Below the pieces are notes generated by a model. The model saw nothing but the letters and a program-made list of their open reading frames with translations, ran no database searches and had not been told where the DNA came from. Of a stretch of DNA of 55,881 nt, positions 21,604 to 45,257 are shown piece by piece (within the stretch, counting starts at the first letter, position 1; each line of letters starts with the position of its first letter). Source of the DNA: an uncultured Bacteroidales bacterium (GTDB lineage Bacteria; Bacteroidota; Bacteroidia; Bacteroidales; FEN-979); contig CAIKNA010000209.1 in assembly GCA_903828645.1 (NCBI GenBank), positions 1 to 55,881 of the forward strand, given 5' to 3'. The position numbers and the translations under genes are program-made.

Positions 21604-21630
21604 CAGGCATCACTGCCTGACCAGTTTTTT
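21604..21630 (+). terminator. Possible weak terminator after guanine deaminase
   Basis: A CAGGCA/TGCCTG stem with a TCAC loop (21604-21619) is followed after five bases by six T (21625-21630) on the plus strand. It overlaps the last codons and stop of the convergent cohesin gene. The short stem and the gap before the T-run make it uncertain. Confidence 0.3.
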
Positions 21631-24600
21631 AGTATATCCTTTATTCCCATTTACAACCCTGACGAAATAAAAACCCGCCGGTTTTCCTTTAAGGGAAAAT
21701 TCCCGTCGTGATTCACCGGTCATTCCCTCACCGAGGATCATCTCTCCGCAGGTTCCATAAATAGTTACATACACATCCCCCGACAAATATTTATCCTCCA
21801 GTTCAAGGGTGAAATGGTCCGTTGTCGGGTTGGGGTAAATCCTGAACATGGATCCGTCCGGTGGCACAATCAACCGATCCTCCATTGCAGTGGCAACAGG
21901 TGCTGCCGGCAATGAACTGCAATATTGTCCGGATGCGGTGATGTAACCGTGCAAGTACCCGTTGGGCAATACCTGTGTACCGGGAAGATAGTTGATCTTC
22001 AGCCCCGCAATCATGGTCGCGCTGCCGCCACCCTGAACAACAAAGCTGGTGCTGCTGCCTGCCACTGTGATGGTTTGCAGGGCATTATAACAATTGCTTG
22101 TCCCGCTGCCGATGACAATGTCCTGGACCGTCAGGTCGGTTGAGACCCCGCTGACAAATACATTCATTACATCGCTGCCAACGCAGCCATTGTTAGCTGT
22201 TACCGTGAGTGTATAGGCAGTGGTAACAGCGGGAGATGCAACCGGGTTAGGGATCGTTGCGCTGCTCAGCGAGCCGGCCGGGGCCCATAACCAGGTGTAT
22301 GGCGTCGCTCCGCCGGTGGCCGATCCGTTCAGTTGAACCGAACTGCCGGTCCGGGTCAGATCAGGTCCTGCACTCACAATCAAAGCTCCTGCCGCAACCG
22401 ACACATTCGAGTTGACATAGAAAGATGACATAATATTGCCCGACCCATCACTATATTCACACGCCCCCGGCGTTGGGGTGTCCCAGCTAAGTGCGGCAGA
22501 TATGCCGGCACTAGCCTTGAACCGGTATTGAATAAGGGTTCCTGTACCAATTGTTGCTGCTGTGGTCGACGCCCATGTCATATAGACTTTGTTGGCCATG
22601 CGGTTCACCATCAGCATGCCACTGGACAGGGCTGCATTGGCCCCCATGTATCCTTCAAAAGTCATCTTGGTCGTATCAAAGACCAGTGTCAGCGATATGC
22701 TCCCCACATTGCTGCAATTCGTTACGTTGATTGGTATATTGAGGTTACCTGTACATGAGTTGCTCACCGACCCAGGGGTTGTTGTGATGGCAGCCTGGGT
22801 AACCGCAAGTTGTGCAGAATTTGACGTGACGATAGGGGTGCAGGTGCCTGAAACAATACAGTGGTAGAGATACCCGTTCATCCCGGTTGAAGCGGGATTG
22901 ACGGTGAGTGTTGCACTGGTCACCCCTGAATAAGGGGTTACATTTGTAAGGTTCGACCAGCTCAACCCTCCATTCGCAGTCACCTGCCACAGATATCCAG
23001 GACCGGTGCCAATGGCTGAAACCGAGAAGGACGTGCTTCCTCCGGCATAAATGGTTTTATTTACGGGATCAGCCGTGATGGCTGGAGGCGTGTTGATTGT
23101 TGCACTTCCATTGGTCCACGTGGAAAAAATCACCTGCCCATTTATATCGGTGTATTCACAGTTACCCGGGGTTTGTGTATCCCAGGTGAGGGTGCTGGCC
23201 CCCGGAATACCGGTGAATTTTAGTTCGATCAGCAATCCCCCATTGGCAATCGTTGATGCCATAGTATTCGACCAGGTAAGGTAAACCGTGCCAGACGAGG
23301 CATTGATCACAAAATTACTCCCGCCAAGTGCCCCGTTAAGGTTCTGGTAAGCAGTGTAAGCTAGTATTACAGGGTTGTAGTTCAGCGACAGCGAAAACGA
23401 TCCTACCCCGATAAAATCTGTCACATTCACCGGGATGATTATCTCGCCCGGGCAACCGCTAACTGTACCGCAGGACGTGAGGATGTTCGGCAGCACCGTA
23501 AGGGTCGCTGCGTTGGAATAGACCACAGGCAGGCAGGTGCCGGTCACACGGCAACGATACTGGAAGGTACTCATTGAAAGCTGAGCATTGCTTATGTTCA
23601 TGGTCGGGTTGGTAACATTGGTGTAACTTCCACCGTTGCTAAGATTCGTCCACAGGCCCCCTCCATTGGTGCTCAATTGCCAAAGATAAGCCAGGCCCGA
23701 TCCCGAAGCTGCTGTGGTGAAACTCGTATTCTGACCCTTGGCGACAATGACACCGGACGGGTTGAGGGTCACCGCTGGAATGTCATAGACCGTCTGGCTT
23801 CCATTGACAAATACACCTGTAATCTCCGTACCCCCCAGGGTCATGTATTCGCAATTGCCTGCGTTCGAGGTATCCCAACTCAGGCTGCTCGTGCCGGCTA
23901 TGCCCGTGAACAAAAGTTCAACGATCGTCCCGGCGCCAAAGCTTGCTGCTGCAGTAGAGGCCCAGGTTAAATATACCTTCCCCCCGCTTGCATTGGCAAA
24001 TAAAGTGCCGCCCGAAAGCGCAACATTCAGTGTTTGATACCCTGTATAGGTCATGAAGGCAGGGTTGTAGGAAAGCGTGAGAGAAAAGGCCGCCACCCCC
24101 GTGAAATTGGTCACCGTCAAAGGTACTGTGATACTCCCAGGACAGATACTTTGGGTAGGAAGGGTCGTGGTGATGGGGTTGATTACCGAGAGGGTTACCA
24201 CGTTGCTGTATATCACAGGTGTGCAGGTGCCCGTAAGCCGGCAGCGAAATTTATAGCCGTTGTATGCCAGCGTGGCGGTGGTGAGGGAAAGCGTGGGCGT
24301 GGTGACACCCGAATAGGGAGCCGTGTTGGTCAGATCGTTCCATAACGTTCCTCCATCCGTACTCAGCTGCCACAGGCAGGCAATAGAAGTACCGGCAGCA
24401 GATAACGTAAACGAGGTATTCTGCCCAACCAGCACTATCTGATCAACCGGCTGGGTGTTGATTACAGGTACCTGGTTGATGGTGGCAATGCCACTGGCAT
24501 AGGTCGATGGAAGTATATTTCCGTTTACATCGCTGTACTCGCAATTGCCGGGGGTTTGCGTATCCCAGGCAAGGCTTGTTGTACTGGTTACGGCTGTAAA

Positions 24601-24936
24601 TTTCAACTCAACCATGGTGCTGTTGCCAAGGTTGGCAGCGGTGGTATTTGCCCAGCTGATAACAACCTTTCCTCCTGCCGAATTGATGATCAGCATTCCA
24701 ACCGTAAGCGCAGCGTTGAGATTCTGGTAACCTGTGTAGGTGAGATGTGTATTATCAAAGTTCAGGATCAGTGAGATGGCCCCGACTCCATTGCAGTTTG
24801 TTACGGTAACAGGAACCACAACCGGTCCCGGACAGCTTATCACACTCGTAGCCGTTGTGTTAATCTGTGCCACCGCTGCACCCGATAAAAGCACCATCAG
24901 CATCAGTGGTAGTATTTTAAAAATCAGTGTCTTCAT
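21610..24936 (-). CDS. Secreted four-cohesin/Ig-repeat protein with T9SS sorting domain (copy 1)
   Basis: 1108 residues, exported: signal peptide 1-23 (MKTLIFKILPLMLMVLLSGA, cut after VAQ). Four cohesin-like modules of about 130 residues, starting near 24, 255, 485 and 715, each carry a closing WDTQTPGNCEYSD-type motif; three Ig-like modules (YSGVTTPTLSLTTATLAYNG) alternate with them, giving a period of about 690 bases. A PKD-like segment follows near 885-950, then a segment with GSGTSNCYNALQTITVAG, and a C-terminal type A sorting domain from FRIYPNPTTDHFTLELE to the end. The preceding gene encodes a dockerin-like protein and starts only 13 bases away, so an adhesin/scaffold role binding that partner is a reasonable inference. 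No catalytic module is visible. It is the last gene of the six-gene minus-strand set. Confidence 0.83.
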   Translation of the reverse strand: MKTLIFKILPLMLMVLLSGAAVAQINTTATSVISCPGPVVVPVTVTNCNGVGAISLILNFDNTHLTYTGYQNLNAALTVGMLIINSAGGKVVISWANTTAANLGNSTMVELKFTAVTSTTSLAWDTQTPGNCEYSDVNGNILPSTYASGIATINQVPVINTQPVDQIVLVGQNTSFTLSAAGTSIACLWQLSTDGGTLWNDLTNTAPYSGVTTPTLSLTTATLAYNGYKFRCRLTGTCTPVIYSNVVTLSVINPITTTLPTQSICPGSITVPLTVTNFTGVAAFSLTLSYNPAFMTYTGYQTLNVALSGGTLFANASGGKVYLTWASTAAASFGAGTIVELLFTGIAGTSSLSWDTSNAGNCEYMTLGGTEITGVFVNGSQTVYDIPAVTLNPSGVIVAKGQNTSFTTAASGSGLAYLWQLSTNGGGLWTNLSNGGSYTNVTNPTMNISNAQLSMSTFQYRCRVTGTCLPVVYSNAATLTVLPNILTSCGTVSGCPGEIIIPVNVTDFIGVGSFSLSLNYNPVILAYTAYQNLNGALGGSNFVINASSGTVYLTWSNTMASTIANGGLLIELKFTGIPGASTLTWDTQTPGNCEYTDINGQVIFSTWTNGSATINTPPAITADPVNKTIYAGGSTSFSVSAIGTGPGYLWQVTANGGLSWSNLTNVTPYSGVTSATLTVNPASTGMNGYLYHCIVSGTCTPIVTSNSAQLAVTQAAITTTPGSVSNSCTGNLNIPINVTNCSNVGSISLTLVFDTTKMTFEGYMGANAALSSGMLMVNRMANKVYMTWASTTAATIGTGTLIQYRFKASAGISAALSWDTPTPGACEYSDGSGNIMSSFYVNSNVSVAAGALIVSAGPDLTRTGSSVQLNGSATGGATPYTWLWAPAGSLSSATIPNPVASPAVTTAYTLTVTANNGCVGSDVMNVFVSGVSTDLTVQDIVIGSGTSNCYNALQTITVAGSSTSFVVQGGGSATMIAGLKINYLPGTQVLPNGYLHGYITASGQYCSSLPAAPVATAMEDRLIVPPDGSMFRIYPNPTTDHFTLELEDKYLSGDVYVTIYGTCGEMILGEGMTGESRREFSLKGKPAGFYFVRVVNGNKGYTKKLVRQ

Positions 24937-24949
24937 AGCGCAGCGATTT

Positions 24950-27900
24950 TTAATTGGATACCACTAACTTGATCACATCGGAGTTGGTTTGCCCGTTGTT
25001 TATGTTTTCGATTTTTAACAAATATACGCCTGCTTTGATGGTCGATGCATTGATGGAAACTTTATGATGACCCTGGGAAAATTCTCCGCATGCGATCTCC
25101 ATCACCGGAGTGCCAATAATATTTAAAAGCGAAAGCTTTACTATCCCCGGTTGCCCCAGTGTAAAATCAACCGCCGATTTTTGGGTGACAGGGATGGGGT
25201 AAACCGACAACTCTGTAAGAGCCCCAATCGGTCTGATCCCTGTCAGGGTTGTGTTGATGGTCGGGATCGATACTACCTCCCATTCATTGGGTGTGGTATT
25301 GTCATCGGCGAACTCGCAATCTTCATAAATGTCCAGGGCAATTCCCGTCGTCAGTCCCGACAAATCTTTGGCCTTCATTCTCAGAAGTACAACTACATCA
25401 TCATCATTGATATTCAGCGAATTGAGATCACACCAGCCCATTACGAACAACCCGTTATTTGCAGTCCACGAAAATCCGCTCACGCCGTTGGACAAACGGG
25501 CATCAGTCACTTCCAGGTAATCTTCAGGGTAATAGAATCCAAGCGAAATAGCGCCTACATGCATCGCTGTTTTCAACCTCACAGGAAAGTCAAATTCATT
25601 GAAAGACTCAACCAGCACTGAGCCTTCGTGAACCAGGCCAAGCGAGGTGGAACTCTTCTTGGCCGGGGCATACGTGGCATTCACATCGCCGAAGCAAAGC
25701 ATGTCGATGTTGTTGGTTACATTGCTGCCGCTGGTATATACCGTATCGCTGTGATAAAGGTAATCGCCCGCCGGGAAGGAGGAGGTCATCAACGAATAGC
25801 GTTTCATCACAAGCAATGCATCCGTGCCATTAATGGCATGACTCATATTGACATCAGCCGCGGCAAGATTTATCCCTGCAAGCGGGGTAATCTGTGCAAA
25901 GTGCTTCAAAATAGCCTGCGCATCGGTGGAGTTTACACCACCCCAGGCGGCAGAGGGTGTGATGGTCATCTTATAATCGCCCGAAGCAAAGGGTGGAAAT
26001 GCATACGCGCCCAAACTGTTGGTGGTCGTGGAAGCAATCAGGGTATTACTGAAATTTTTAATCGCCATTGCCGCAGATTTCATTGGATTGGCGCCGGTAT
26101 TTGCATATTTTACGGTACCGCTCATCACGGTAGTCGGGGTAAACAGGGAGGGAACCTGAGCAAACGGACCGTAATTAACCCTTCCTTTTATGGAATTATC
26201 AGATTTGTCGAATATTCTGTATGCGATCATTGTTGAATCACCGGTCCCCCAGTAGTTATATCTCGCATTGAGATCAATGGCCGAATTGTTATAAAGATCG
26301 TAAGTGCCATTGTTGTATACATTGCAGGTGTAAGCATCTGTATTGCCCAAGGTGGCAGTTCCGGTTCCGTCAAGATAAATTCCATAACCAGTGTTGTAAG
26401 TAAAAGTGGAATTTTTAATCGTCAGACTGGAATTGTATATGTTTAATCCATTGCCGACAGCCTGTGTCAGGGTACAATGATCCAGGGTGGGCTGGGAGCT
26501 ATTCTCACTTCGAATATTGCAGCCATTCGCTTTTCTGATGGTACAATAACTTAGCGAGCTGATGGCCCCATTATAATCACTATGATCCTGGAAATAAATG
26601 CCATTCCAGTCACCGGTAAGACCACTGAGCGGGGTAAAGGTAATCAGGCTGTCAGCCTTTCCAACCGCATTCAATTCGCCTCCAAAAGGAGAACCGCTAT
26701 AATAACCGATCTGAATATTTTTCCCTGATGCAAAATTCAAGGAAACTCCTGGTTCGATAGTGAGCCGGCTTATGTTATAGTATTTCCCGATCAGAATATT
26801 ATCCAATACCAGGTATTCGGCATTGTCCTTTTGTAATGTTTTGTTTTCCGTGTAGGTTCCGCCAGACAAAGCCATCATATTCACGACATTACTGGTAAAA
26901 GTATTGTTGCGGTGGTAGGGAGCAGATGTCCAGTCCAGGAAATTGACCGGGTATCTGCCATTATTGATAAAAGCAGAGTTGGTAAATGATCCCGAACCGG
27001 CATTATACCGGAGTCCGTCGGTAGCCGCATCGGAGAGGGTGCAATGGTCGATGGTAATATTGGCTGTGTTTTCACACAGAACATTGTAAGCACCTGCTTT
27101 TTTTATTGTACAGTATTTCAACTGGCTTGCGGCACCGTTATAATCACTTTGGTCCTGAAAGTAAATCCCATTCCAGTCTCCTGTAATACCACTGTAGGGT
27201 TTAATGATAATGAGGCTGTCAGCTTTGCCTACTGCATACAATTCACCTCCGAATGGAGAGCCGGAGTAAAATCCAACCTGCATGCTTTTTCCGCTGGCGA
27301 ATGAAAGGGTAAGCCCTGGTTCAACAGTAAGCCGGCAACCGCTATAATATTTCCCGATTACAATATTGTCGAGAATATGATACCCGATCCCGTCATTCTG
27401 AAAAGTCCTGCTATCACTGAGGGTGCCGCCGCAATATCCGATCATGTTGATCGAATTTAATGAATAGGTGTTACCGTTAAGTGTTGGAAAAGTATGCGGC
27501 TCTGAGAAATATATCGGGTACCTGCCATTGGACAAAAAAGTCGAATTTGCAACGATGTTGTAAGCTCCGTAAAATTTAATCCCATCCTGGACGGCATTTT
27601 GAATTGTACAATGGTTAATGCTGGGTTGATAGGTGTTTTCAATATACATGTTGTATGCATTTCCCTTTTCCACTTTGCAATAATCCAAATAGGATGTCGC
27701 ACCGCTATAATCGCTTAAATCGTGAAAATATATACCTTCCCATCCCCCGGCAAGGCCATTGACAGAGGTAAAGTTAATGAGGCTATCCGATACACCTATT
27801 GCATACAGCTCACCTCCAAATGGAGAGCCGGCGGAAAATCCAACCTGGATATTTTTCCCCGATGCCATTTTTATCGTATTTCCGGGTTCTATCGTCAGGC

Positions 27901-30118
27901 GGCACACACTATAATATTTCCCGATTCTCAGATTGTCCATAACATATATGGGGAAGGACAATGAGTTCCAGCGGTAGCTGTCGGAAATATCACCTCCCGG
28001 AAGGCATATGCCATTGTTTGTATTATTTGTCAGCGTAAGGGTTCCAAGGGGCTGTGAAATAGTCAAACTTACTGTTGGATAGTAGATGGCATATAAGTTA
28101 TTATTTATAGTCGAAGAGGTGTAATTCGGCATAGATGCGACAGATGATAAATAAACTCCCGCTCCGCCGTTATAGGAAATGGTGCTGTTTATAAGCGATG
28201 GATTTGAATTGGATAAGGACAACCCCATTTCTGTGTTGCCACGGATGGTGGAGCTTTGGATAATCAGATTCGAGGTCTCCAGCCTGATCCCGTTTCCATC
28301 TGCATTCCGAATATTGCACCGCGACAACAGGGGTTCATTTGACTGGTTGCAATAAAGATTTGCATTGTTAGATCCGAAGCCTGCGTTGGCTATTACCGTA
28401 TAGTTGAACTGGGAAGAAACCCCTGCATCGCTGTTTGGGTCAAAATAGAGCCCGTCCCATTTCCCCTGTTCACTGTTAAAGCTCAGAAATTTTACTGAAT
28501 CCACTGCTGTTCCATTACAGAAAACAGATGCGGCACCAACTGTCATCCCTGTTTCAGGCAGGAAAAGAATGGTAGCACCGGCTTCAAATGTATGTGTACC
28601 GGCAGTAAATGAAATATCAGAAGTGGCCCAGTATGGACTTGCCGCTTTGGTGAAGGTTAGGGTTGCATTTAAATTTCCGTCCAGCTGGGTACCAGGCGTA
28701 ACCAATCGCATTTCATTCAGGGCAGCATTCTGGATACCGGAACCAGTCAGTAAAACAGCATACTGCAGGTATTGCTTTGTCAGACCAATTGTAACAGGTG
28801 TTGTTGCCACAGCGGTTGACCAGTCGCCCCAGATTCCATCAGCGCCGGCGGTACGGTAGGTAACAAAAAGGGTTGCGGGAGCGGTCAGGGTTTTATCAAA
28901 GGCAATTGAACTGATTGTCCTTTCCGCTCCAAGGTCATAAAACGGGTTTGATACAAAAACACCGTGCGCAATATAATTGGCCGTTAATACCATATTCGCA
29001 AACCGGCTATTGATGATCGGTGTTCCCGACAAGTTGGTCCCACCGGTATAGTAGGCCTGTCCATTCCCTGTAAATGCAGAACCATCTTTGGTAAAGTCGT
29101 ACATTACATTTGCAGAAGTACTCCAGGTTAAGGATCCGGCATCAGCATTGGCACAGTAAACCGTGTTACTTAACGTTGCACCGACCGCACCGGCCATCAC
29201 TGCGATGACACCGTTTGTAACCACCGCTGAATGGTTACTTATTGCAACCGGCAGTACACTACCCGCTGACCAGCTTCCGGTTGAGCCGTTTGTGGCAGCC
29301 GGGGTGGCAATATATACGGTATTGCTTTGGGTTCCACTATTATCATACCCCCCCAGCACATATAGTTTGCTGTTGTAGGTCACCGTGCTGTGCCGGTTGC
29401 GGGCAGCCGTCAGGCTGGTACCTGCTGAAAATGCCGATAACGTATTTAACGCATTGACTTTGGTATAATAAACCGTATTCAGGGCTGTGGTTTCAGTCAT
29501 TGAATTAGATCCACCGATCACATAAATGTAGCCCATCATGTAAGTTGCAGTATGTCCCCAAAGATTGGCCGGAAGTGTTACGCCAGAAGTCTGCCAGGCT
29601 CCGATTGTGCCATCTGCGTTGATCGCAGCATAATAAATGGTATTATAAACCTGGGTTGCATCACGGCCCCCCATCACATAAATCGTGTTGGTTCCGATCA
29701 CTACGGCCGGATCGCGCAAAGCCACAGGCAAAGGATTCAAAGCTGTCCAGCTTGTAATCCCTCCCGCCTGGATGGCTGCAACATAAACCGTATTCACTAC
29801 CATTGTATTATTGTATCCCCCAATGAGATAAACATACCTGTCGTTCCAGGAAACGGTTTTATGCCCTGCCAGGGTTTGTGGAAGTACCGTTGTTGTCAGC
29901 CACGTGCCAACATCACTTGCACCAGGTTGCAAATAAACATTATCACTGGCAACCACCGCATTGTTTAAAACTCCTTTATTAAAATCGGCATTGAGGGTTT
30001 GCTTAAACGTGACCTGTGCAGTAGCTGTATCCAGGCCTGTTATAACAATAGAAATCATACCCAGGAATAGAACCTTTACAAAAAGCCGGTTTGTCAGAAA
30101 AAGTAAGTTGGTTTTCAT
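24950..30118 (-). CDS. Giant secreted kelch/beta-helix/dockerin-like protein with T9SS sorting domain (copy 1)
   Basis: 1722 residues with a signal peptide (1-35). Residues 50-340 are kelch-type propeller repeats (VYLIGGYNNTMVVNTVYVA and similar). About 520-1266 is a right-handed parallel beta-helix made of repeated modules (TIRKANGCNIRSENSSQPTL). About 1331-1390 is a CNA-B/carboxypeptidase-regulatory-like sandwich. About 1393-1440 is a dockerin-like pair, whose second repeat AADVNMSHAINGTDALLVMK keeps the D-x-N-x-S...D calcium loop while the first is degenerate. About 1490-1625 is cohesin-like, and from 1638 a T9SS sorting tail ends in KLVVSN. It starts 58 bases after the response regulator stop and is followed by the cohesin gene. 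The helix could bind polysaccharide, but lyase residues were not identified. Confidence 0.82.
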   Translation of the reverse strand: MKTNLLFLTNRLFVKVLFLGMISIVITGLDTATAQVTFKQTLNADFNKGVLNNAVVASDNVYLQPGASDVGTWLTTTVLPQTLAGHKTVSWNDRYVYLIGGYNNTMVVNTVYVAAIQAGGITSWTALNPLPVALRDPAVVIGTNTIYVMGGRDATQVYNTIYYAAINADGTIGAWQTSGVTLPANLWGHTATYMMGYIYVIGGSNSMTETTALNTVYYTKVNALNTLSAFSAGTSLTAARNRHSTVTYNSKLYVLGGYDNSGTQSNTVYIATPAATNGSTGSWSAGSVLPVAISNHSAVVTNGVIAVMAGAVGATLSNTVYCANADAGSLTWSTSANVMYDFTKDGSAFTGNGQAYYTGGTNLSGTPIINSRFANMVLTANYIAHGVFVSNPFYDLGAERTISSIAFDKTLTAPATLFVTYRTAGADGIWGDWSTAVATTPVTIGLTKQYLQYAVLLTGSGIQNAALNEMRLVTPGTQLDGNLNATLTFTKAASPYWATSDISFTAGTHTFEAGATILFLPETGMTVGAASVFCNGTAVDSVKFLSFNSEQGKWDGLYFDPNSDAGVSSQFNYTVIANAGFGSNNANLYCNQSNEPLLSRCNIRNADGNGIRLETSNLIIQSSTIRGNTEMGLSLSNSNPSLINSTISYNGGAGVYLSSVASMPNYTSSTINNNLYAIYYPTVSLTISQPLGTLTLTNNTNNGICLPGGDISDSYRWNSLSFPIYVMDNLRIGKYYSVCRLTIEPGNTIKMASGKNIQVGFSAGSPFGGELYAIGVSDSLINFTSVNGLAGGWEGIYFHDLSDYSGATSYLDYCKVEKGNAYNMYIENTYQPSINHCTIQNAVQDGIKFYGAYNIVANSTFLSNGRYPIYFSEPHTFPTLNGNTYSLNSINMIGYCGGTLSDSRTFQNDGIGYHILDNIVIGKYYSGCRLTVEPGLTLSFASGKSMQVGFYSGSPFGGELYAVGKADSLIIIKPYSGITGDWNGIYFQDQSDYNGAASQLKYCTIKKAGAYNVLCENTANITIDHCTLSDAATDGLRYNAGSGSFTNSAFINNGRYPVNFLDWTSAPYHRNNTFTSNVVNMMALSGGTYTENKTLQKDNAEYLVLDNILIGKYYNISRLTIEPGVSLNFASGKNIQIGYYSGSPFGGELNAVGKADSLITFTPLSGLTGDWNGIYFQDHSDYNGAISSLSYCTIRKANGCNIRSENSSQPTLDHCTLTQAVGNGLNIYNSSLTIKNSTFTYNTGYGIYLDGTGTATLGNTDAYTCNVYNNGTYDLYNNSAIDLNARYNYWGTGDSTMIAYRIFDKSDNSIKGRVNYGPFAQVPSLFTPTTVMSGTVKYANTGANPMKSAAMAIKNFSNTLIASTTTNSLGAYAFPPFASGDYKMTITPSAAWGGVNSTDAQAILKHFAQITPLAGINLAAADVNMSHAINGTDALLVMKRYSLMTSSFPAGDYLYHSDTVYTSGSNVTNNIDMLCFGDVNATYAPAKKSSTSLGLVHEGSVLVESFNEFDFPVRLKTAMHVGAISLGFYYPEDYLEVTDARLSNGVSGFSWTANNGLFVMGWCDLNSLNINDDDVVVLLRMKAKDLSGLTTGIALDIYEDCEFADDNTTPNEWEVVSIPTINTTLTGIRPIGALTELSVYPIPVTQKSAVDFTLGQPGIVKLSLLNIIGTPVMEIACGEFSQGHHKVSINASTIKAGVYLLKIENINNGQTNSDVIKLVVSN
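26560..27960 (-). repeat. Three tandem beta-helix modules of about 565 bp in copy 1
   Basis: The conserved GDWNGIYFQD/GGWEGIYFHD motif recurs near 27735, 27169 and 26600, each time with the same flanking order (RLTIEPG, QVGFYSGSPFGGELYA, YCTIKK, a TYSLNSINMIG-like segment). The period is about 565 bases (188 residues). Copy 2 (37584-43316) has four such modules. Confidence 0.7.
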
Positions 30119-30176
30119 AATAAACTGTTTTTAAATAAGTTAATTTGATTTTTATGGCTCAATTTATTGTTTTCCA

Positions 30177-30806: not shown

Positions 30807-30865
30807 GTGAAATATTTGACCGCAAATTAAACATTATAAAAAGGAAAGGATATAGCCTGTTTAGG

Positions 30866-34219: not shown

Positions 34220-34240
34220 TACCAGAAAGTTCTCTGGTAA
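34219..34240 (-). promoter_or_regulatory. Hairpin touching the histidine kinase start codon
   Basis: TTACCAGA and TCTGGTAA form a perfect 8-base stem around a 6-base loop, in the 36-base gap between the upstream cohesin gene and the kinase; its last base is the A of the kinase ATG. It is not followed by a T-run, so a terminator is unlikely. It could lower kinase translation relative to the surface proteins, or be an operator. Confidence 0.4.
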
Positions 34241-34255
34241 AGGTATTACTTATCC

Positions 34256-37200
34256 TTAGAATTTAACTATCTTTTTCGTCCCGCTGTTTTTCCCGCAGGT
34301 TATACGAATAAGGTATATTCCAACCGGAATGGTGGTCAGTGAAAAAGGGTGTGTGCGGCTGCCGGTAAAAGTTTCACTGGCAATTTTTTCCCCATGGATT
34401 CCAACCAGTTCAGCCTTCACTGGTATCGTTTCGCAATCCTGCGACAGTTCCAGAATAAAATTCCCCGAGGTCGGATTTGGATATACCCTGAAAAATGATT
34501 CGTCCGGTGGAGATGGTTGTGTTTCCTCTACCACCATGGCAACAGGTGCTGCCGGCAATGAACTGCAATATTGTCCGGATGTGGTGATGTATCCGTGCAA
34601 ATATCCTCCGGGGTTAACCGTCGTTCCAGGAAGATAGCTGATCATCTGGCCGGCAATCATGTTTACGCTGCCTCCGCTCTGAACCACAAAGCTGGCTCCT
34701 CCTCCGGCAACGGTTATCGTTTGGGTTGCATTGAAACAGTTGTTCTGCCCGCTGCCAATGGTGATATCCTTCACGGAAATGTCGGACGGGAAAATTACAT
34801 TTACCACATCGGAGCCGCTGCACCCTGTTGTATTGACGGTCAGTATATAAGCAGTAGTTGTGGGCGGTGACGCTACCGGATTCGCAATTGCAGGGTTGTC
34901 AAGCCAATATGACGGGGTCCATGACCATGTGTATGGAGGAGTTCCTCCCGTTGCAGAGGCATTGATCTGTACCGAACCTGATGTCAGAATGAGGTCACTC
35001 CCTGCATTTACGATCAGGGCATTGGCGACCACCGAAAGGGTTGAAGTATTGTAAAATGAAGTGATGATTGTTCCTGCCGGATCGCTGTACTCACAGGCTC
35101 CTGCCGTCTGCGTGTCCCAGCTGAGGGATGTGGAAATACCCGCAGCAGCTCTGAAACGGAACTGGATCAGAACCCCCGATCCGATATTGGCTGCCGTTGC
35201 GGATGCCCATGAAAGGAAGACCTTGTTGGCCGTACGGTTCACAACCAGCATGCCAGCAGCCAGGGCCGCATTGGTTCCCTGGTATCCTTCAAAGGTCATC
35301 TTGGTTGTATCAAAGATCATGGTCAGCGAAATGCCGCCAACATTGCTGCAATTCGTTACATTGACTGGAATAATGAGGTTCCCTGTACATGAATTGGTTA
35401 CCACCCCCGGGGTGGTTGTGATGGCAGCCTGCGTTACCGTGAGTTGTGCGTCATTTGAGGTAACGGAAGGGGTGCAGGTGCCTGAAACAATACAGTGGTA
35501 TGAATACCCGTTCATCCCTGTAGAAGCGGGATTGATAGTGAGTGTGGAGCTTGTTACTCCTGAATAGGGAGTTACATTTGTGAGGTTCGACCAGTTCAAT
35601 CCTCCATTCGTAGTCACCTGCCATAAATATCCAAGACCGGTGCCGGAGGCTGAGACCGAAAAAGAGGTGCTTCCTCCGGCATAGATGGTTTTATTTACAG
35701 GATCGGCAATGATGCTAGGGGGCGTGTTGATTGTTGCGTTTCCATTGGTCCACGTGGAAAAGATAACCAGCCCGCTGAGGTCGCTGTATTCACAGTTCCC
35801 CGGGGTTTGTGTGTCCCAGGTGAGGGTGCTGGCCCCCGGGGTTCCGGTAAATTTCAACTCGATCAGCAATCCCCCGCTGGCAATCGTCGCCGCCGTGGTG
35901 TTCGACCAGGTCAGGTAAACGGATCCGGCTGAAACATTAGCGGTGAAAATTCCACCGGAAACATTGACATTTAAATTCTGGTAACCGGTATAGGTCAGGA
36001 CTGCCGGATTAAAATTCAGGGTGAGTGAAAAAGAGGCAACACCAATAAAATCGGTCACATTTACCGGGATGATGATCTGACCCGGGCATCCGGTTACCGT
36101 GCCACAAGCCGTTATGATGTTAGGCAGCACAGTAAGAACCGCAGCGTTCGAATAAACCACCGGCAAACAGGTACCGGTTACGCGGCAACGATACTGGTAA
36201 CTACTCATTGACAGCTGGGCATTCGAAATGTTCATGGTGGCATTGGTCACATTGGTATAATTCCCGGTATTGGTAAGGTTGGCCCATGATCCCCCGGCAT
36301 TTGTACTCACCTGCCACAGGTAGGACAATCCCGAACCGGAAGCGGAAATGCTGAAACTCGTGTTTTGACCTTTGGCAATTATTACACTTACAGGGTTGCT
36401 GACAATCGACGGCAGGGCATATATCGTCTCACTGCCATTGACAAAAACCCCGGTGAACAGGGTTCCTCCCAAAGCGCTGTACTCGCAATTGCCTTCAGTG
36501 GCAAGGTCCCACGTCAGGCTGCTGGAACCGGTAGCTGATGTGAAAAGAAGTTCCGCAATGGTTCCGTTGCCGAAACTTGCTGCGGTTGTAGAGGTCCATG
36601 TCATGTAAACTTTCCCTCCCGATGGATTCAGAACGAACGTTCCACCCGATAGGGCTCCGTTCAGGTTCTGAAAACCGGTATAAGTCAGGCAGGATGAATT
36701 ATAAGAAAAGGTAAGAGAAAATGAGGCCACCCCGTTGAAATTGGTCACGGTTACCGGAACAACAATACTCCCCGGGCAAAAGCTCGCTGTTGGGAGGGTT
36801 GTGGTTATCGGATTGATGACCGAAAGTGTCACCTCGTTGGTGTAAACCACGGGGGTGCAGGTACCTGTAAGCCTGCAGCGGTATTTATATCCATTATACG
36901 CCAAAGGCGTATTGGTAATGGTCATGTTTGAAGAGGTAACCCCGGAATAGGGCGCCACGTTTGTGAGGTCGCTCCAACTGGTTCCATTGTTGATGCTGAT
37001 TTGCCAGAGGTAGGCGATACCCGTTCCGCTGGCCGAAACGCTGAAATTAACATTCTGCCCGACCAGGGCTGTTTGACTGGCAGGCTGGGTGTTGATAACC
37101 GGCGGCTGGTTTATGTTTGCCGTGCCATTGATAAAGGTGGCCGGAAGTACATTTCCGATGACATCGCTGTATTCACAGTTTCCGGGTGTCTGGGTATCCC

Positions 37201-37570
37201 AGGCAAGCGTGCTTGTACTTGATGCGGCGGTAAATCTCAGTTGCATCAGCGTTCCATTGCCGATGTTGGCGGCAGTGGTATTGGCCCAGCTGATAATCAC
37301 CTGGCTTCCTGTTGAATGGACAATCAGCAACCCCGTTGATAAGGCTGCATTCAGATTTTGGTACCCGAGATAGGTTAAATAGGTATTATTGTAATTCAGC
37401 ACCAATGAAATGGCTCCTATCCCATTGCAGTTGGTCACATTGACCGGAACCTGGATTTCGCCGGGACAGCTTGTTACTGTCCCGGCAGTTGTGTTGATTT
37501 GCGCATGGATCGAACCAGCCCCAATCATCAGCATCAATAGCAGTAGTATTTTTAAAATCAGTGTCTTCAT
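34256..37570 (-). CDS. Secreted four-cohesin/Ig-repeat protein with T9SS sorting domain (copy 2)
   Basis: 1104 residues, a paralogue of the 21610-24936 protein along its full length: signal peptide (MKTLILKILLLLMLMIGAGS), four cohesin-like modules (closing CEYSD motifs near 37168, 36480, 35787 and 35090, period about 690 bases) alternating with three Ig-like modules (about 100 residues each), a PKD-like segment, and a type A T9SS tail (FRVYPNPTSGNFILELS to the end). Stretches over 40 bases near the 3' end are identical between the copies, pointing to recent duplication or gene conversion. It follows its kelch/dockerin partner by 13 bases and precedes the histidine kinase by 36. The role is inferred as an adhesive or scaffold surface protein. 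Confidence 0.83.
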   Translation of the reverse strand: MKTLILKILLLLMLMIGAGSIHAQINTTAGTVTSCPGEIQVPVNVTNCNGIGAISLVLNYNNTYLTYLGYQNLNAALSTGLLIVHSTGSQVIISWANTTAANIGNGTLMQLRFTAASSTSTLAWDTQTPGNCEYSDVIGNVLPATFINGTANINQPPVINTQPASQTALVGQNVNFSVSASGTGIAYLWQISINNGTSWSDLTNVAPYSGVTSSNMTITNTPLAYNGYKYRCRLTGTCTPVVYTNEVTLSVINPITTTLPTASFCPGSIVVPVTVTNFNGVASFSLTFSYNSSCLTYTGFQNLNGALSGGTFVLNPSGGKVYMTWTSTTAASFGNGTIAELLFTSATGSSSLTWDLATEGNCEYSALGGTLFTGVFVNGSETIYALPSIVSNPVSVIIAKGQNTSFSISASGSGLSYLWQVSTNAGGSWANLTNTGNYTNVTNATMNISNAQLSMSSYQYRCRVTGTCLPVVYSNAAVLTVLPNIITACGTVTGCPGQIIIPVNVTDFIGVASFSLTLNFNPAVLTYTGYQNLNVNVSGGIFTANVSAGSVYLTWSNTTAATIASGGLLIELKFTGTPGASTLTWDTQTPGNCEYSDLSGLVIFSTWTNGNATINTPPSIIADPVNKTIYAGGSTSFSVSASGTGLGYLWQVTTNGGLNWSNLTNVTPYSGVTSSTLTINPASTGMNGYSYHCIVSGTCTPSVTSNDAQLTVTQAAITTTPGVVTNSCTGNLIIPVNVTNCSNVGGISLTMIFDTTKMTFEGYQGTNAALAAGMLVVNRTANKVFLSWASATAANIGSGVLIQFRFRAAAGISTSLSWDTQTAGACEYSDPAGTIITSFYNTSTLSVVANALIVNAGSDLILTSGSVQINASATGGTPPYTWSWTPSYWLDNPAIANPVASPPTTTAYILTVNTTGCSGSDVVNVIFPSDISVKDITIGSGQNNCFNATQTITVAGGGASFVVQSGGSVNMIAGQMISYLPGTTVNPGGYLHGYITTSGQYCSSLPAAPVAMVVEETQPSPPDESFFRVYPNPTSGNFILELSQDCETIPVKAELVGIHGEKIASETFTGSRTHPFSLTTIPVGIYLIRITCGKNSGTKKIVKF

Positions 37571-37583
37571 GGCGCAGCGGTTT

Positions 37584-40500
37584 TTAGTTGGATACCACTA
37601 ACTTGATCATGTCGGAAATGGTTTCTCCGTTGCTTTTGCTTTCGATTTTTAATAAATACACGCCTGGTTTAAGATTTGAAGCCTTTAATGCAATTTTATG
37701 ATTGCCGGCTGAAAAATCACCCGTTGCTATTTCCATGACAGGGCTTCCTACAATGTTCAGCAAAGTAATTCGCACCACACCAGGATTTTCAAGTGAAAAA
37801 TCAATCACCGATTTTTCCGTTGCCGGGTTGGGATAAACAGACAAACCGGTATGTCCATTGCCAGGGTTTATCCCTGTCAGAACCGTGTTGATCGTAGGGA
37901 TCGAAACTACCTCAAGGTCATTGGGAACGGCCAGCCCGTCTGCAAATTCACAATCCTCATAAATATCCAGCGCGATGCCGGCGGTGAGGCCCGACAGGTC
38001 TTTGGCTTTCATCTTCAGGATGACAACTACATCATCGTTATTGACGTTCAGGGCATTCATGTCGCACCAACCCATCCGGAACAACCCGTCAATTGCAGTA
38101 TAGGAGAATCCGGTCACGCCATTGGCCAGCCTGGCGCCGGTTATTTCAAGATACTGCCCGGGATAATAGAAGCCAAGGGAGATGGCACCCAGATGCATGG
38201 CAGTTTTCAGCTTTACAGGGAACTCAAATTCAGTGAAAGAACCAACCACCAGTGAACCTTCGTGAACCAGTCCGACTGATTCCGAACTTTTTTTGGCAGG
38301 ACCATAGGATAAGTTCACATCACCAAAGCAAGCCATCCTGATGTTGTTGGTAACCACATTCCCGCTCGTATAAAGGGTATCGGAAGTATAGAGGTAATCT
38401 CCGGCAGGGAAGGAACTTATCATTGCCGAATAGCGTTCCATCACAAGCAATGCATCCGTACCGTTGATTGAGTGGCTGGCATTGACATCGGCAGCAGCCA
38501 GGCCCATCCCTGTCAACGGGGTAACCTGGGCAAAATGGTTCAGGATGTTCAGGGCATCAGTTGAGTTTACCCCACCCCATACAGCTGTTGGAGTGATGGT
38601 CATCTGGTAATTTCCTGATGTAAACGGACTGAATGCATAGACCCCGGAAGTGTTGGTTGTGGTGCTAGCCACGCCGATACCGCCAAAGTCCTTGATGGCC
38701 ATGGCGGCATTTTTCATAGGATTGGCCCCGGAATTGGCATATTTTACCGTACCGCTCATTACCGTTGTCGGTGTTGACATCGAAGGTACCTGGGCGAAAG
38801 GCCCGAAATAAACACGCCCTTTGACAGAATTGTCCAGCTTGTCATATATTTTCAATGCAACCATGGTCGAATCGCCGGCACCCCAGAAATTGTAACGGGC
38901 GTTTACATTGGCTGTTGAATTATTATAGAGCTGATATCCGCTACCGCCATTATTGTCGTAAATGTTGCAGGTCAACGCTGCAGTATTGCCAAGGGTTGCG
39001 GTGCTGGTTCCATCAAACATGATCCCATAAGAGGTGTTATAGGTGAATGTGGAATTTTTTATGGTCAGGTTTGAGTTGCCGCTCAGGCTCAGACCAATTC
39101 CGGTCGACTCAGTTACAATGCAGTGATCGATCGTTGGCTGACCGGATGTTGAGCAGGAGATATTGGTCGTCAAAGCCTTTGAGATGTTGCAATATTTCAG
39201 GGATGAGGTACCTCCCCAGTTATCATTCCAGTCTGTGAAAACAAGTCCGTTCCATCCACCGGCCGTATTGTTATAGGGTTTGAATGTGATGATACTGTCG
39301 GCGGTGCCTTCGGCATAGATATCACCACCATAGCTGCCAGTGTTGCCCAACTGGATTTTAACCCCCGGCTCAAATGCCATGGTTATTCCGGGTCTGATGG
39401 TAATCCTGGAATGACTGCCATATTGAGCTATAAGCATGTCAGAGAGAACCCGGTAGGGAACCCCGTCATTGTAATAGGTTATGTTGCTTGTATAGGTCCC
39501 ACCCGAAAGGGCGATATAGTTAGGGGTATTCCCTGTATAAGTATTCCCGAAAAGATAGGAACTGCAGGTCCAGTCGTTGTATTTGAGCGGGTAGCCGGCA
39601 TTATTCAGGAAAGTGCAGTTGGTAATCGGAAAACTGCATGCCAGTTCATCAATCCCATCTCCGCCTGAATTGCTGATAATACAGTGATTAAGGGATGGCT
39701 GAGTCGAACTTTCTGCGTTGATATTGTAAGTGGCTCCTTTATCAATCGTGCAATATGTCAGGAAAGAAGTACCTCCCCAGGTGTCGTTTTGATCCGGGAA
39801 GTAAATGCCATTCCATCCGCCAACAGCATTATTGTATGGCTTGAATGTGATGATGCTGTCGGCCTTGCCTATGGCCCAAAGATCGCCTCCATAGCTGGAT
39901 GCCACTCCAACCTGAAGTTTCACACCGGGTTCAAATGCCAGGGTTACTCCGGGTGTAAGCGTGAGCCTGGCATGACTGCCATATTGTGCTAATCTGATAT
40001 CAGCCAGAACACGATAGGGAACTCCATCGTAATATAATCTCCTGTTGGTGTTATAATCACCACCTGACAGGGCAATGTAGTTAGGTGAGTTTCCAGTGTA
40101 CGTGTTGCCCCTGAGATAAGAATCGCAGGTCCAGTCGTTGTACCTGAGCGGATAGCCGGCGTTGTTCAGGAAGGTGCAGTTGGTGATCGGGCTGTTTGAT
40201 TGATATTCAACAATTCCATCCCCGGCTGACAGGCTGATAGTGCAATGGTCGAGACTTGGTTGTGTTGACGATTCCATGTAAAGATTATAGGTAGCACCCT
40301 GCTTTATCGTGCAATAGGTAAGAACGGAAGTTCCTCCCCACGAGTCGTTTACATCGGTAAAATAAATGCCTCCCCATCCGCCCGGTGTCGCATTGTAGGC
40401 CTTAAAGACAATCGGGCTTCCCACTGTTCCCTGGGCATAGAGGTCACCTCCGTAACTGCTCGCTATTCCCACCTGCAATTTTTTGCCTACCGCAAATGCC

Positions 40501-43316
40501 ATGATTACACCAGGGTTGACTGTAAGCCTCGAATAACTGGAATACTTGGCGACAAAAATGTCATCCAGTACATAATATGGCATCCCTCCTTCATTGGTAA
40601 TTGTCCGGTCGAGGTCGTATGTGCCCCCTGAAAGGGCGATGTAGTTGATTCCATTTCCAGAATAGGTATTTCCGGTATGCACGGGGTCCGCATGGGTATC
40701 CATGTAATGCAGCGGATACCTTCCGTTGCCTGTAAACTGGCAATTGGTAATGGCCCCGTAGGCGCTCTGATATTGGGCACCATCCAGTACGGCATTCCTG
40801 ATTTTGCTATGGTTCAGCACATTTGGCTGAGTTGTATTGACCGATAAATAATTATAGTCGTTTCCCTTTTCAATGATGCAATAATCCATTTGTGACTGTC
40901 CGCTATAGGAATCGCTGGCATCCGTAAAATAGATGCCGTTCCATCCTCCCGGAAGGCCATTGTATGAGGTGAAGGTGATCAGGCTGTCATAGGTTCCAAG
41001 GGCGTACAACTCCCCGGCGTATGGAGTTCCAATCTGTATTTGCGCACCACTAACTACCTTTATCGTATTCCCCGGTTCTATGGTAAGCCTGTTGCTGGGC
41101 GGAGTGGTGGGATATGCCTGGACAATGACCGTTCCCAGTAAAATATAGTCATATGACAGGGAATTCCAGTCATGATTGGCACTAACGGTGCCGCCATCAA
41201 TGGCAATGCCGTTGTAGGTATTGGCTGTAAAGGCAGGGGTGCCGTTTGGCTGGTAAAATGTAAAATTGGGCGATGGGTAATGATATGCAAAGAGGTTGTG
41301 GTCGATAGTGGTGGAGCTGTAAGTCGGCACTGAAACAGTACTTGTCAGGAACACCCCGGCTCCTCCGTTGTATGACAATGCGCAATTAACAAAACTCGGA
41401 TTGGATAGGTCAAGGTATGCTCCATTTTCAGTATTTCCCCTAAGGGAAGAATTTTGCATCACAACGTTTGCGCTGTAAAGCCTGATGCCGTTGCCATCGG
41501 CATTCCTCAGACTGCAGTTCACAAGCAATGGTTCGCTTGACTGGTTGCAATAGAGGTTGGCGTTGTTGGTGCCATAACCGGCATTGGCGATCACGGTATA
41601 ATAAAATTGGGAGGAGACCCCAACATCGCTGCTCGGATCGAAATAAATCCCATCCCATTGCCCTGTTTCGTTGGTATAATATAAAAATTTAACCGAGTCA
41701 ACAACGGTTCCGTTGCAGATAACATTGGCCTGGCTGACTGTCAACCCTGTCTGTGGTAAAAACAGGATAGTCGCCCCTGCCTGAAAGGTGTGGGTTCCCG
41801 CGGTGAAAGAGATATCCGAAGTTGCCCAGTAAGGACTCAATGCCTTTGTAAAAGTTGTTGTGGCATTCAGATTTCCTGTTAACTGAGTGCCCGGTGTGGT
41901 AATTGTGGCATCATTTAATGTTGAATTAAAGGTAGTTGACCCCGTTAAAACAACCTGGTATTGCAGGTATTGTTTGGTCTGGCTGACCACAATCGGAGAA
42001 ACATTTGAAAGAGCAGTCCAGTTACTCCATATCCCGTCGCTAAGTGCGGTGCGGTATGAAACCTGCAGGTTTGCATTGACAGCATTATAGCTGGCCGTAA
42101 ATGAAAGGGAGTTGATGAGCCTTTCGGCGCCCAGCTGGTAAAAGGGATTGGAGACAAACACCCCATGGTTCACATAGTTGGCGGATAAGCTCAGGTTCGC
42201 ATAGCGGCAATTATAAATGGGAGTTCCTGACAAATTGGCTCCCCCGGTATAATAAACCTGCCCGTTTGCCTGGAAGGCAGAGCCATCCTTGGTAAAGTCG
42301 TACATCAGATTCGGTGAGGTCACCCATGAAAGGCTTACGGCATCGGCATTTGCGTAATATACGGTATTGCTCAGCGTGGCGCCGACCGCACCTGCCATAA
42401 CCGTAATAAGACCATTCGTAACAGCAGATGAGTGGTTGCTTATGGCAACCGGCAGGCTCGTACCCGCCGACCATGCTCCTAGAGAACCATCGAGGCCCGG
42501 AGCCGCAATATAGACTGTAGACGATTTGGTTCCTGAATTGTCATAGCCGCCCAGCACATAGAGTTTGCTGTTGTAAGTCACCATGCTGTGCTTGTTGCGC
42601 GCCAGCGGCAGACTTGTCGCACTGGTAAAGGAAGAAAGTGTATTGTTGAAATTTACTTTGGCATAATAAACATTGCTGATTGCCGAGGTCTCTGTGGCAG
42701 AGCTGGAACCTCCGGCAACATAAATATAGCCATTCAGGTAAAGCGCCGTGTGACCCCACAACGCGGTGGGAAGTGTCACCAGCGAAGTTTGCCATGCACC
42801 GATGGAGCCATCGGTGTTTATTGCGGCATAATAAATTGTATTGTAAATCTGACTGGCATCCCTGCCTCCCATTACATAAATGGTATTGGTGCCGATAACC
42901 ACTGCGGGGTCTTTCAGTGCTACAGGAAGCGGGTTTAAGGCATTCCAGGTAGCAACACCTCCCGACTGGATGGTGCCGACATAAACGGCATTTGAATAGG
43001 TAAGGTTGTTGTATCCGCCCACCACGTAAGCATATTTATCAACCCAGGTAGCAGTCTTGTGTCCCGAAAGGGTTTGGGGAAGAACGGTTGTCGTAAGCCA
43101 TGATCCGACATCGGTGGCTGCATATTGAAGGTAAACATTGTCACTGGAAACCACCACGTTGTTTAATACGCCCTGATTGAAATCTGCATTGAGCGTTTGT
43201 GTGAAATTCACCTGGGCATTGACCATGGCAGGCCAAAGAACCGCGATAAAAAAAATTCCCAGGAATAAATTACTCGTGCAAATTTTGCTCACCAAATTGA
43301 AGAAATACGCTTTCAT
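37584..43316 (-). CDS. Giant secreted kelch/beta-helix/dockerin-like protein with T9SS sorting domain (copy 2)
   Basis: 1910 residues, a paralogue of the 24950-30118 protein. Order: signal peptide ending MVNAQ, kelch repeats (YVVGGYNNLTYSNAVYVG), long right-handed beta-helix (about 509-1440), CNA-B-like domain near 1519, dockerin-like repeats near 1580-1625 (AADVNASHSINGTDALLVME), cohesin-like domain, and T9SS tail (LSVYPNPATEKSVIDFSLEN to KLVVSN). It is 188 residues longer than copy 1, exactly one extra beta-helix module. The open frame begins 12 codons earlier, but the ATG at 43316 (MKAYFFNL) gives the normal signal peptide and matches copy 1. A good promoter lies about 150 bases upstream, making this the probable first gene of the 22-kb set. 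Confidence 0.83.
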   Translation of the reverse strand: MKAYFFNLVSKICTSNLFLGIFFIAVLWPAMVNAQVNFTQTLNADFNQGVLNNVVVSSDNVYLQYAATDVGSWLTTTVLPQTLSGHKTATWVDKYAYVVGGYNNLTYSNAVYVGTIQSGGVATWNALNPLPVALKDPAVVIGTNTIYVMGGRDASQIYNTIYYAAINTDGSIGAWQTSLVTLPTALWGHTALYLNGYIYVAGGSSSATETSAISNVYYAKVNFNNTLSSFTSATSLPLARNKHSMVTYNSKLYVLGGYDNSGTKSSTVYIAAPGLDGSLGAWSAGTSLPVAISNHSSAVTNGLITVMAGAVGATLSNTVYYANADAVSLSWVTSPNLMYDFTKDGSAFQANGQVYYTGGANLSGTPIYNCRYANLSLSANYVNHGVFVSNPFYQLGAERLINSLSFTASYNAVNANLQVSYRTALSDGIWSNWTALSNVSPIVVSQTKQYLQYQVVLTGSTTFNSTLNDATITTPGTQLTGNLNATTTFTKALSPYWATSDISFTAGTHTFQAGATILFLPQTGLTVSQANVICNGTVVDSVKFLYYTNETGQWDGIYFDPSSDVGVSSQFYYTVIANAGYGTNNANLYCNQSSEPLLVNCSLRNADGNGIRLYSANVVMQNSSLRGNTENGAYLDLSNPSFVNCALSYNGGAGVFLTSTVSVPTYSSTTIDHNLFAYHYPSPNFTFYQPNGTPAFTANTYNGIAIDGGTVSANHDWNSLSYDYILLGTVIVQAYPTTPPSNRLTIEPGNTIKVVSGAQIQIGTPYAGELYALGTYDSLITFTSYNGLPGGWNGIYFTDASDSYSGQSQMDYCIIEKGNDYNYLSVNTTQPNVLNHSKIRNAVLDGAQYQSAYGAITNCQFTGNGRYPLHYMDTHADPVHTGNTYSGNGINYIALSGGTYDLDRTITNEGGMPYYVLDDIFVAKYSSYSRLTVNPGVIMAFAVGKKLQVGIASSYGGDLYAQGTVGSPIVFKAYNATPGGWGGIYFTDVNDSWGGTSVLTYCTIKQGATYNLYMESSTQPSLDHCTISLSAGDGIVEYQSNSPITNCTFLNNAGYPLRYNDWTCDSYLRGNTYTGNSPNYIALSGGDYNTNRRLYYDGVPYRVLADIRLAQYGSHARLTLTPGVTLAFEPGVKLQVGVASSYGGDLWAIGKADSIITFKPYNNAVGGWNGIYFPDQNDTWGGTSFLTYCTIDKGATYNINAESSTQPSLNHCIISNSGGDGIDELACSFPITNCTFLNNAGYPLKYNDWTCSSYLFGNTYTGNTPNYIALSGGTYTSNITYYNDGVPYRVLSDMLIAQYGSHSRITIRPGITMAFEPGVKIQLGNTGSYGGDIYAEGTADSIITFKPYNNTAGGWNGLVFTDWNDNWGGTSSLKYCNISKALTTNISCSTSGQPTIDHCIVTESTGIGLSLSGNSNLTIKNSTFTYNTSYGIMFDGTSTATLGNTAALTCNIYDNNGGSGYQLYNNSTANVNARYNFWGAGDSTMVALKIYDKLDNSVKGRVYFGPFAQVPSMSTPTTVMSGTVKYANSGANPMKNAAMAIKDFGGIGVASTTTNTSGVYAFSPFTSGNYQMTITPTAVWGGVNSTDALNILNHFAQVTPLTGMGLAAADVNASHSINGTDALLVMERYSAMISSFPAGDYLYTSDTLYTSGNVVTNNIRMACFGDVNLSYGPAKKSSESVGLVHEGSLVVGSFTEFEFPVKLKTAMHLGAISLGFYYPGQYLEITGARLANGVTGFSYTAIDGLFRMGWCDMNALNVNNDDVVVILKMKAKDLSGLTAGIALDIYEDCEFADGLAVPNDLEVVSIPTINTVLTGINPGNGHTGLSVYPNPATEKSVIDFSLENPGVVRITLLNIVGSPVMEIATGDFSAGNHKIALKASNLKPGVYLLKIESKSNGETISDMIKLVVSN
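39200..41100 (-). repeat. Four tandem beta-helix modules of about 561 bp in copy 2
   Basis: GGWNGIYFTD-type motifs recur near 40941, 40375, 39808 and 39250, with NYIALSGGTY at equally spaced positions (about 40635, 40072, 39510). The last two complete modules are most alike, including WTCDSYLRGNTYTGN against WTCSSYLFGNTYTGN, suggesting they arose by the latest duplication. Confidence 0.75.
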
Positions 43317-43467
43317 AATATTAATTTTTAAGTGAATGTTGTGGTTGAACATTTAATTAATTACTTGCTTTAAAAGTGATTTATTTTTACTCTTAAGCTT
43401 GCGGTAAAAGGGGATAACAGATGATTGTAGCATTCCTGTTCTATATAAATGGACTTTTTTTAAACTG

Positions 43468-45165: not shown

Positions 45166-45257
45166 TGGCAATTGACAACCCCGATATCTGTCGGAAAATT
45201 ATCGTACTTTTACAATAAAATTATTTATAATAAAACGTGTAACTGAAATCCCCGATC

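Follow-up and report, generated by a model that had tools for sequence, protein, structure and literature searches.

A widespread cohesin-dockerin gene unit with type IX secretion tails in Bacteroidales and its possible role in a non-cellulosomal surface assembly

A stretch of 55,881 nucleotides from an uncultured Bacteroidales bacterium (GenBank assembly GCA_903828645.1, contig CAIKNA010000209.1; hereafter the window) carries two copies of a gene unit which, as we propose with moderate confidence, specifies a non-cellulosomal cohesin-dockerin assembly exported to the cell surface by the type IX secretion system (T9SS). The first gene of the unit encodes a kelch, beta-helix and dockerin protein (KD), the second a protein with four cohesins (COH), and the two pairs lie around a two-component system (TCS) of a histidine kinase (HK) and a response regulator (RR). 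Six collinear open reading frames on the minus strand follow each other in the order KD, COH, HK, RR, KD, COH, with gaps of 13, 36, 59, 58 and 13 bases; a check of the reading frames agrees with a first-pass annotation of this DNA on order, strand, positions and gaps. Upstream and downstream are used here in the direction of transcription, the upstream pair being pair 2 of that annotation, and the genome of the window is called G000 in comparisons.

Both partners of the unit are recognized by Pfam profiles. Each COH (upstream, 34256..37570; downstream, 21610..24936; minus strand, as are all features given below) contains four stretches of Cohesin PF00963 (E 1.7e-25 and 4.7e-24), three Ig_3 stretches marking Ig-like domains and a T9SS tail. 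Both KD (upstream, 37584..43352; downstream, 24950..30118) match Dockerin_1 PF00404 above the curated cut-off (E 3.1e-7 and 3.6e-6), together with Kelch, Beta_helix and CarboxypepD_reg. The cohesin and dockerin homology that had been suspected from the letters alone, with four cohesin modules and a dockerin partner in each pair, is borne out by these matches. The two KD share one plan, consisting of a signal peptide, a kelch propeller, a right-handed beta-helix, a CarboxypepD_reg-dockerin cassette (upstream, 38283..38774, by Pfam and a cassette profile; downstream, 25649..26140, with the second calcium loop intact and the first degenerate), a cohesin-fold domain and a T9SS tail. The upstream KD probably starts at 43316, where its conserved part begins; its signal peptide was judged by eye. 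The T9SS tail (PF18962/TIGR04183) exceeds the Pfam cut-off in both COH and in the upstream KD. In the downstream KD (24953..25204) it reaches 24.1 bits against a Pfam cut-off of 27 and, barely above the NCBIfam cut-off of 23, 23.4 bits, so that the earlier assignment of such tails to all four surface proteins stands, with one of them below threshold in Pfam. The model of this last tail has an Ig-like fold and resembles PorU (Z 10.2), tied with unrelated Ig-like domains, which proves little. SprA, the one component of the T9SS translocon that was searched for, is encoded in the genome (SprA_N, E 7.4e-165, at C126).

A second connector, absent from the first-pass annotation, lies within each KD. 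Behind the dockerin follows a domain of about 135 residues (downstream, 25244..25654, by profile and structure comparison; upstream, 37881..38288, by homology to the downstream copy), which is not reported by Pfam in KD. This domain aligns with the COH cohesins (hhalign, E 3.7e-5, probability 71%), and its AlphaFold2 model matches cohesins in Foldseek (TMt 0.63-0.70) and a ScaC cohesin in VIA (Z 13.0 over 124 residues, rmsd 2.5), with solved cohesins as the best matches. The model of the KD C-terminus is weak (mean pLDDT 55) and was used solely for this domain. At the same site, two other dockerin proteins of the genome match Pfam Cohesin (C381:3128-3424 and C381:7446-7730), the latter above the cut-off only together with neighbouring matches. 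Because the domain both aligns with cohesins and is predicted to fold like them, KD bears a plug, the dockerin, and a socket, the cohesin-fold domain, in one chain.

The unit extends far beyond the window. KD were searched for in 43 genomes of the family, including the window's own, and in 198 genomes from the order, 12 of which (again including its own) matched with E 1e-60 or lower. A named genome collection was also searched and gave 11 KD loci. Among 35 KD loci inspected, four are truncated by contig ends, which leaves 31 with a usable 3' end; these four, KD fragments below 700 aa (L074 of G041) and L080 are excluded from the counts. A cohesin gene follows KD on the same strand at 29 of the 31 loci, in 19 cases at a gap of 6-13 bases, and the 29 loci span ten families (the window's and nine others) plus DeMMO3. 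One exception is the first KD of G081, which stands ahead of a second KD that has its COH; the other is the KD of G109, which has neither dockerin nor cohesin-like domain and is not followed by a COH. The remaining 30 KD possess dockerin, cohesin-like domain and T9SS-type tail, the tail being judged in relatives by a profile built from 13 proteins of the window's genome, both KD and both COH among them (the KD of G073, for example, matches at E 5.8e-13). Within G000, which has 28 cohesin matches, eight full dockerin-cassette matches and two weak partial ones, a cohesin gene lies behind all seven testable cassette genes, the eighth being at a contig end. The gene-order survey therefore answers in two parts the concern that the arrangement might be unique to this contig: two pairs around a TCS were found in no other genome examined, and the KD-COH unit itself is widespread. 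KD-COH also occurs on records SACF01000005.1 (L082) and DYQT01000045.1 (L085).

In the mechanism that we favour, COH would serve as a scaffold offering four cohesin sockets, into which the dockerin of KD would plug. KD would be a display protein able to dock, with its kelch propeller and long beta-helix as the exposed head, and since KD also bears a cohesin, chains or branches of docked units could arise. Export and anchoring of both proteins would be carried out by the T9SS. The tails of COH vary in a manner that touches on this last step. Most complete-ended COH of the window's genus have the T9SS tail (not so G012d), and in five other genomes six COH (one each in DeMMO3, G081, G213 and G151, two in G148; L078, L081, L144, L145, L147, L154) end in its place in an EF-loop, dockerin-like tail, with one full loop in each of the two from G148 and two loops in the other four; one G148 COH matches Pfam Dockerin_1 at E 5e-4, below the cut-off. 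Such COH would need another cohesin as holder, for which the cohesin of KD is a candidate. The G109 KD (L153) likewise ends in an EF-loop, dockerin-like tail.

Several observations weigh against docking between the two proteins. In all 13 aligned KD the first calcium loop has P or A at position 1, the dockerin itself is poorly modelled by AlphaFold2 (pLDDT <50 at model residues 74-172), and two further Pfam dockerins of the genome (C98, C108), which lack the cassette, have no cohesin gene beside them. In mirror-tree comparisons with COH, the dockerin (r 0.68-0.86) scores lower than the cohesin-like domain of KD (0.91-0.94) and the kelch part (0.84-0.93), so that co-evolution specific to the dockerin is not singled out. 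From this it could be argued that KD and COH are co-expressed stalks whose modules no longer bind each other, their adjacency reflecting co-regulation only: the first loop lacks its acidic position 1 throughout, the mirror-tree signal is not specific, and because each protein has its own T9SS tail, neither depends on the other for anchoring. We consider this improbable, as the same 13 KD all share an unchanged second loop, D-x-N-x-S-x(3)-N-x-x-D, the cassette is kept in 30 of the 31 KD with a usable 3' end, the single KD without it is also without COH, and the dockerin-like tails of the six COH stand at the position of the T9SS tail.

The KD heads most likely bind glycans, particles or cells, with an enzymatic role as the main rival, and the target would most likely be glycans, particles or neighbouring cells. 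The beta-helix of the downstream KD (26138..28648; residues 373-1327 in the AlphaFold2 model) is modelled with a mean pLDDT of 87, and its structural matches are generic. A motif, G-x-W-x-G-[ILM]-x-F, occurs four times in the downstream and five times in the upstream KD, mostly 187-189 residues apart with a first spacing of 238-239; several other KD have fewer exact copies. The repeated motif and the differing repeat number lead us to favour a stalk or binding surface. A cellulosome-like complex, in which the beta-helix or kelch part is a carbohydrate-active enzyme unresolved by Pfam and docked to a cell scaffold, appears unlikely to us. It finds some encouragement in the best Foldseek matches of the helix model, which include GH87 alpha-1,3-glucanases, PL6 alginate lyases and the AlgE4 epimerase, and in matches of the kelch part to NCBIfam mutarotase models (E 1.2e-10 and 1e-9, at 41 and 38 bits against cut-offs of 243 and 256); moreover, a complex of this kind, with a scaffold ending in a C-terminal surface-attachment domain, has been proposed for Ca. 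Stygibacter (PMC8542988). However, the helix matches do not exceed a TM-score of 0.29 and include, besides enzymes, tailspikes and the self-associating adhesin Ag43, and four or five repeats of the motif suit a stalk or binding surface better than a single active site. Furthermore, none of the Pfam enzyme families matches, at E 0.01 or lower, the eight dockerin-cassette proteins of the genome, whose other regions comprise kelch and beta-helix, FG-GAP/TIG, SprB repeats and further cohesins. At this level the earlier statements that no cellulase or other enzyme module is present, and that the assembly is non-cellulosomal, fit the data, the latter also by the genuine cohesin and dockerin homology. 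Pfam detects no carbohydrate-binding module (CBM) on either COH and no peptidase or lamin-tail anchor on KD, COH or the other cassette proteins scanned. Elsewhere in the genome, one cohesin protein (L014) has AMPK1_CBM, CBM48 and CBM20 matches, and at another locus (L015, G000:C381, 2-11397) five collinear genes include three with a dockerin cassette and two with cohesin only; one dockerin protein there has nine SprB repeat stretches and another has five Pfam cohesin stretches plus the cassette.

The heads differ within a genome more than the connector that they share. The KD beta-helices fall into two old, well separated types, and three genomes (G000, G081 and G012, which has further copies) each hold KD of both types. 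Over the C-terminal part from cassette to tail (395 columns), the trees pair the copies of the same genome, with support of 95/96 in G000, 100/99 in G081 and 100/98 for G012a and G012b. The N-terminal trees separate them, and their pairing there is rejected by the approximately unbiased test (p 4.7e-14, 1.5e-163 and 3.0e-57 for G000, G081 and G012), for which the groups were picked after the trees had been seen; more distant copies were excluded from both sets of trees. At the DNA level, G012a and G012b are 94-97% identical over the final part present, the cassette, and 50-59% over residues of about 600-1200. Two contigs of G012 (L041, L067) break within KD where the copies turn near-identical, with 141 identical end bases; the assembly was probably interrupted there by a converted stretch. 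In G081, but not in the window, the two KD have the kelch part in common as well (85/93). From these patterns we infer gene conversion or cassette exchange in the connector, and selection for a common partner would be a plausible cause. The window's genome would display two head types, one from each beta-helix lineage, on one common connector.

Here, too, some results pull the other way. The dockerin and cohesin-like columns alone (236) do not resolve the window's two KD as sisters, although the G081 pair stays together (99/97; G012a and G012b are outside that tree). G012a and G012b cover only 33% of the C-terminal columns, a third KD, G012c, groups apart from both, and conversion could follow from sequence similarity alone. 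A species tree from three flanking genes gave no resolution, and swapping of helix types between genomes is therefore not demonstrable. A bolder variant, quite unlikely in our estimation, holds that KD and COH assemble by themselves into a surface lattice or a fastener between cells for kin-specific adhesion, with swappable heads on a conversion-uniform connector. Joining of dockerin and cohesin in trans between sister cells is conceivable because each protein has its T9SS tail, and the kin-specific aspect would follow from a connector kept uniform per genome by conversion.

The TCS between the two pairs is complete in its NarL-type features. HK (30866..34219) combines a sensor region made of a Ycf48-like stretch and six FG-GAP_3 stretches, with seven DxDxDGxxD-type loops, with HisKA_3, including the phospho-acceptor His925, and HATPase_c; its best sequence match in the PDB is cartilage acidic protein 1 (E 2.2e-17). 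RR (30177..30806) is of the NarL/LuxR type, with Response_reg and GerE. A search of the open-access literature for FG-GAP kinases in Bacteroidetes gave one review, whose abstract opens on an unrelated subject. HK-RR precedes KD-COH in six of nine comparable genomes (G000, G014, G011, G016, G022, G025; RR is intact in G016). Of the nine, all but G011 share a downstream flank with the window; the contig of G011 stops inside COH, with upstream neighbours that are those of G018. Other TCS classes adjoin KD-COH elsewhere: in G213 and DeMMO3 the neighbours are a TPR-kinase and a LytTR regulator, in G069 a divergent HisKA kinase and a Trans_reg_C regulator. From this synteny, the adjacent system with its FG-GAP sensor would probably tune expression of the surface proteins.

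This adjacency has its limits. HK-RR is absent before KD-COH in the other three genomes (G018, G013, G020), with no remnant in the gap, and with 93 receiver matches in 5.1 Mb of genome, about one per 55 kb, some of the neighbourhoods may be due to chance. In 11 family genomes, 11 loci (L116-L126) hold paralogues of HK-RR (HK 44-52%, RR 54-69% identical) next to other genes; at L119, L124 and L125 the neighbouring gene has a T9SS-like tail. In addition, a terminator-like hairpin of 13 pairs (34151..34182; -18.1 kcal/mol including flanks), with a T run behind it, begins 73 nt past the stop of the upstream COH, within the annotated 5' end of HK. The window contains two distinct hairpins of at least 10 pairs followed by T (three entries), and ten resampled windows gave 0 to 6 entries with a mean of 1.9, so that the window is not enriched in them. 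The hairpin suggests that the upstream pair is a separate unit, and because of it, a single 22-kb transcript is doubtful and was not accepted, the hairpin being not decisive. Given the three genomes without the system, the possible chance neighbours, the paralogues elsewhere and the hairpin, HK-RR is best read as a common but dispensable companion of KD-COH. The self-regulation proposed earlier is accordingly supported by the recurring TCS neighbours and weakened by the units that lack HK-RR and by the doubt about one transcript.

The strong promoter claimed in front of the set turned out to be weaker. With the Bacteroidetes -33/-7 pattern as search pattern, a single, weak match, TTG-N20-TATTTTTG, is found ahead of the upstream KD at 43498-43468. 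The window has four matches of this kind in all, and the yield of a sigma-70-type scan over 29900-45700 does not exceed that of shuffled sequence (23 matches against a mean of 26.1). A conserved promoter was rejected, as among 17 KD, six HK and the window's RR and both COH a full match occurs only at the window's upstream KD and the G025 HK. The promoter-like match and the hairpin together bracket the upstream pair, and it is tenable, if rather doubtful, that HK-RR is unrelated to at least this pair, a self-contained unit that landed ahead of an older HK-RR-KD-COH locus. The restriction of the double arrangement to this genome and the HK-RR paralogues beside other genes would agree with this; the six of nine genomes in which HK-RR adjoins KD-COH, and the two further TCS classes that do so against a background of about one receiver per 55 kb, argue against it.

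Cohesin-dockerin pairs have mostly been studied as organizers of enzymes. The clostridial cellulosome joins repeated scaffold cohesins to dockerin partners and is anchored by SLH or sortase. The present unit resembles it in the four-cohesin scaffold with dockerin partners, and in the dockerin-like COH tail of five related genomes; it differs in that neither enzyme nor CBM is detected on KD and COH, and T9SS replaces SLH/sortase. By Pfam, a multi-cohesin scaffold and dockerin partners are present, and enzyme-borne dockerins and a scaffold CBM are not detected. Non-cellulosomal cohesin and dockerin proteins were reportedly described by Peer et al. in 2009. The likeness lies in cohesin and dockerin modules in an organism without sign of a cellulosome; unlike there, the dockerin and multi-cohesin genes are near-constant neighbours here, with T9SS tails and often a TCS beside them.

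The claim that such an assembly had not been described does not hold for the kind as such. Four publications describe non-cellulosomal cohesins or dockerins (PMC6461901, PMC8542988, PMC9012536, PMC10066038), and non-cellulosomal or cellulosome-like proteins have been described in Planctomycetes, Cloacimonadota, ANME archaea and Omnitrophota. The planctosome proposed for Nemodlikiaceae (Planctomycetes) likewise has dockerin and cohesin in one adaptor chain, as KD does here, a freshwater setting and no link to cellulose, but it comprises peptidases and a lamin-tail anchor in place of propeller or beta-helix heads and T9SS tails (PMC6461901). The complex of Ca. Stygibacter, a lake bacterium, shares a multi-cohesin scaffold with a conserved C-terminal surface-attachment domain; the dockerin enzymes (GH18, GH57, S8/S53 and C25 peptidases) and CBMs reported there are not detected here (PMC8542988). 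Proteins of ANME also have dockerin plus cohesins in one protein with no cellulose degradation known, but are archaeal, and their dockerin partners include ABC-transporter binding proteins (PMC9012536). In the open-access literature searched, as far as it was available, no description of the KD-COH pair was found. Cohesin and dockerin modules outside the cellulosome in one organism are hence already known, and the KD-COH gene unit appears, by this search, to be a new form of them: a widespread Bacteroidales unit in which cohesin and dockerin genes are genetically welded, with T9SS tails, propeller or beta-helix heads, and a connector seemingly kept uniform while the heads differ. With it, the role of non-cellulosomal cohesins becomes directly testable with few recombinant modules, and new connector pairs for protein display are offered.

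Further features of the window concern the history of the unit. The two pairs are old copies (KD 63%, COH 69% identical), and because of this low identity an assembly duplicate is excluded as their origin. The two COH are sisters in their tree (support 99), and around residues 551-720 they show what looks like a conversion tract. Just upstream of the upstream KD lies the relic of a third KD-COH pair (43604..45181), a kelch fragment adjoining COH fragments in a broken frame, which, like the cohesin-fold domains and the hairpin, was absent from the first-pass annotation. A plasmid origin was rejected, the sole match being one beta-helix fragment, and a Heparinase_II/III match on a gene flanking the unit is not significant (Pfam, E 0.18). 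In G014 and G018 (L052, L054), a GC-rich repeat-like stretch stands ahead of KD, and the peptide PPPLQGEGRR in the window's open reading frame 17512-20934 may be an in-frame copy of such a repeat.

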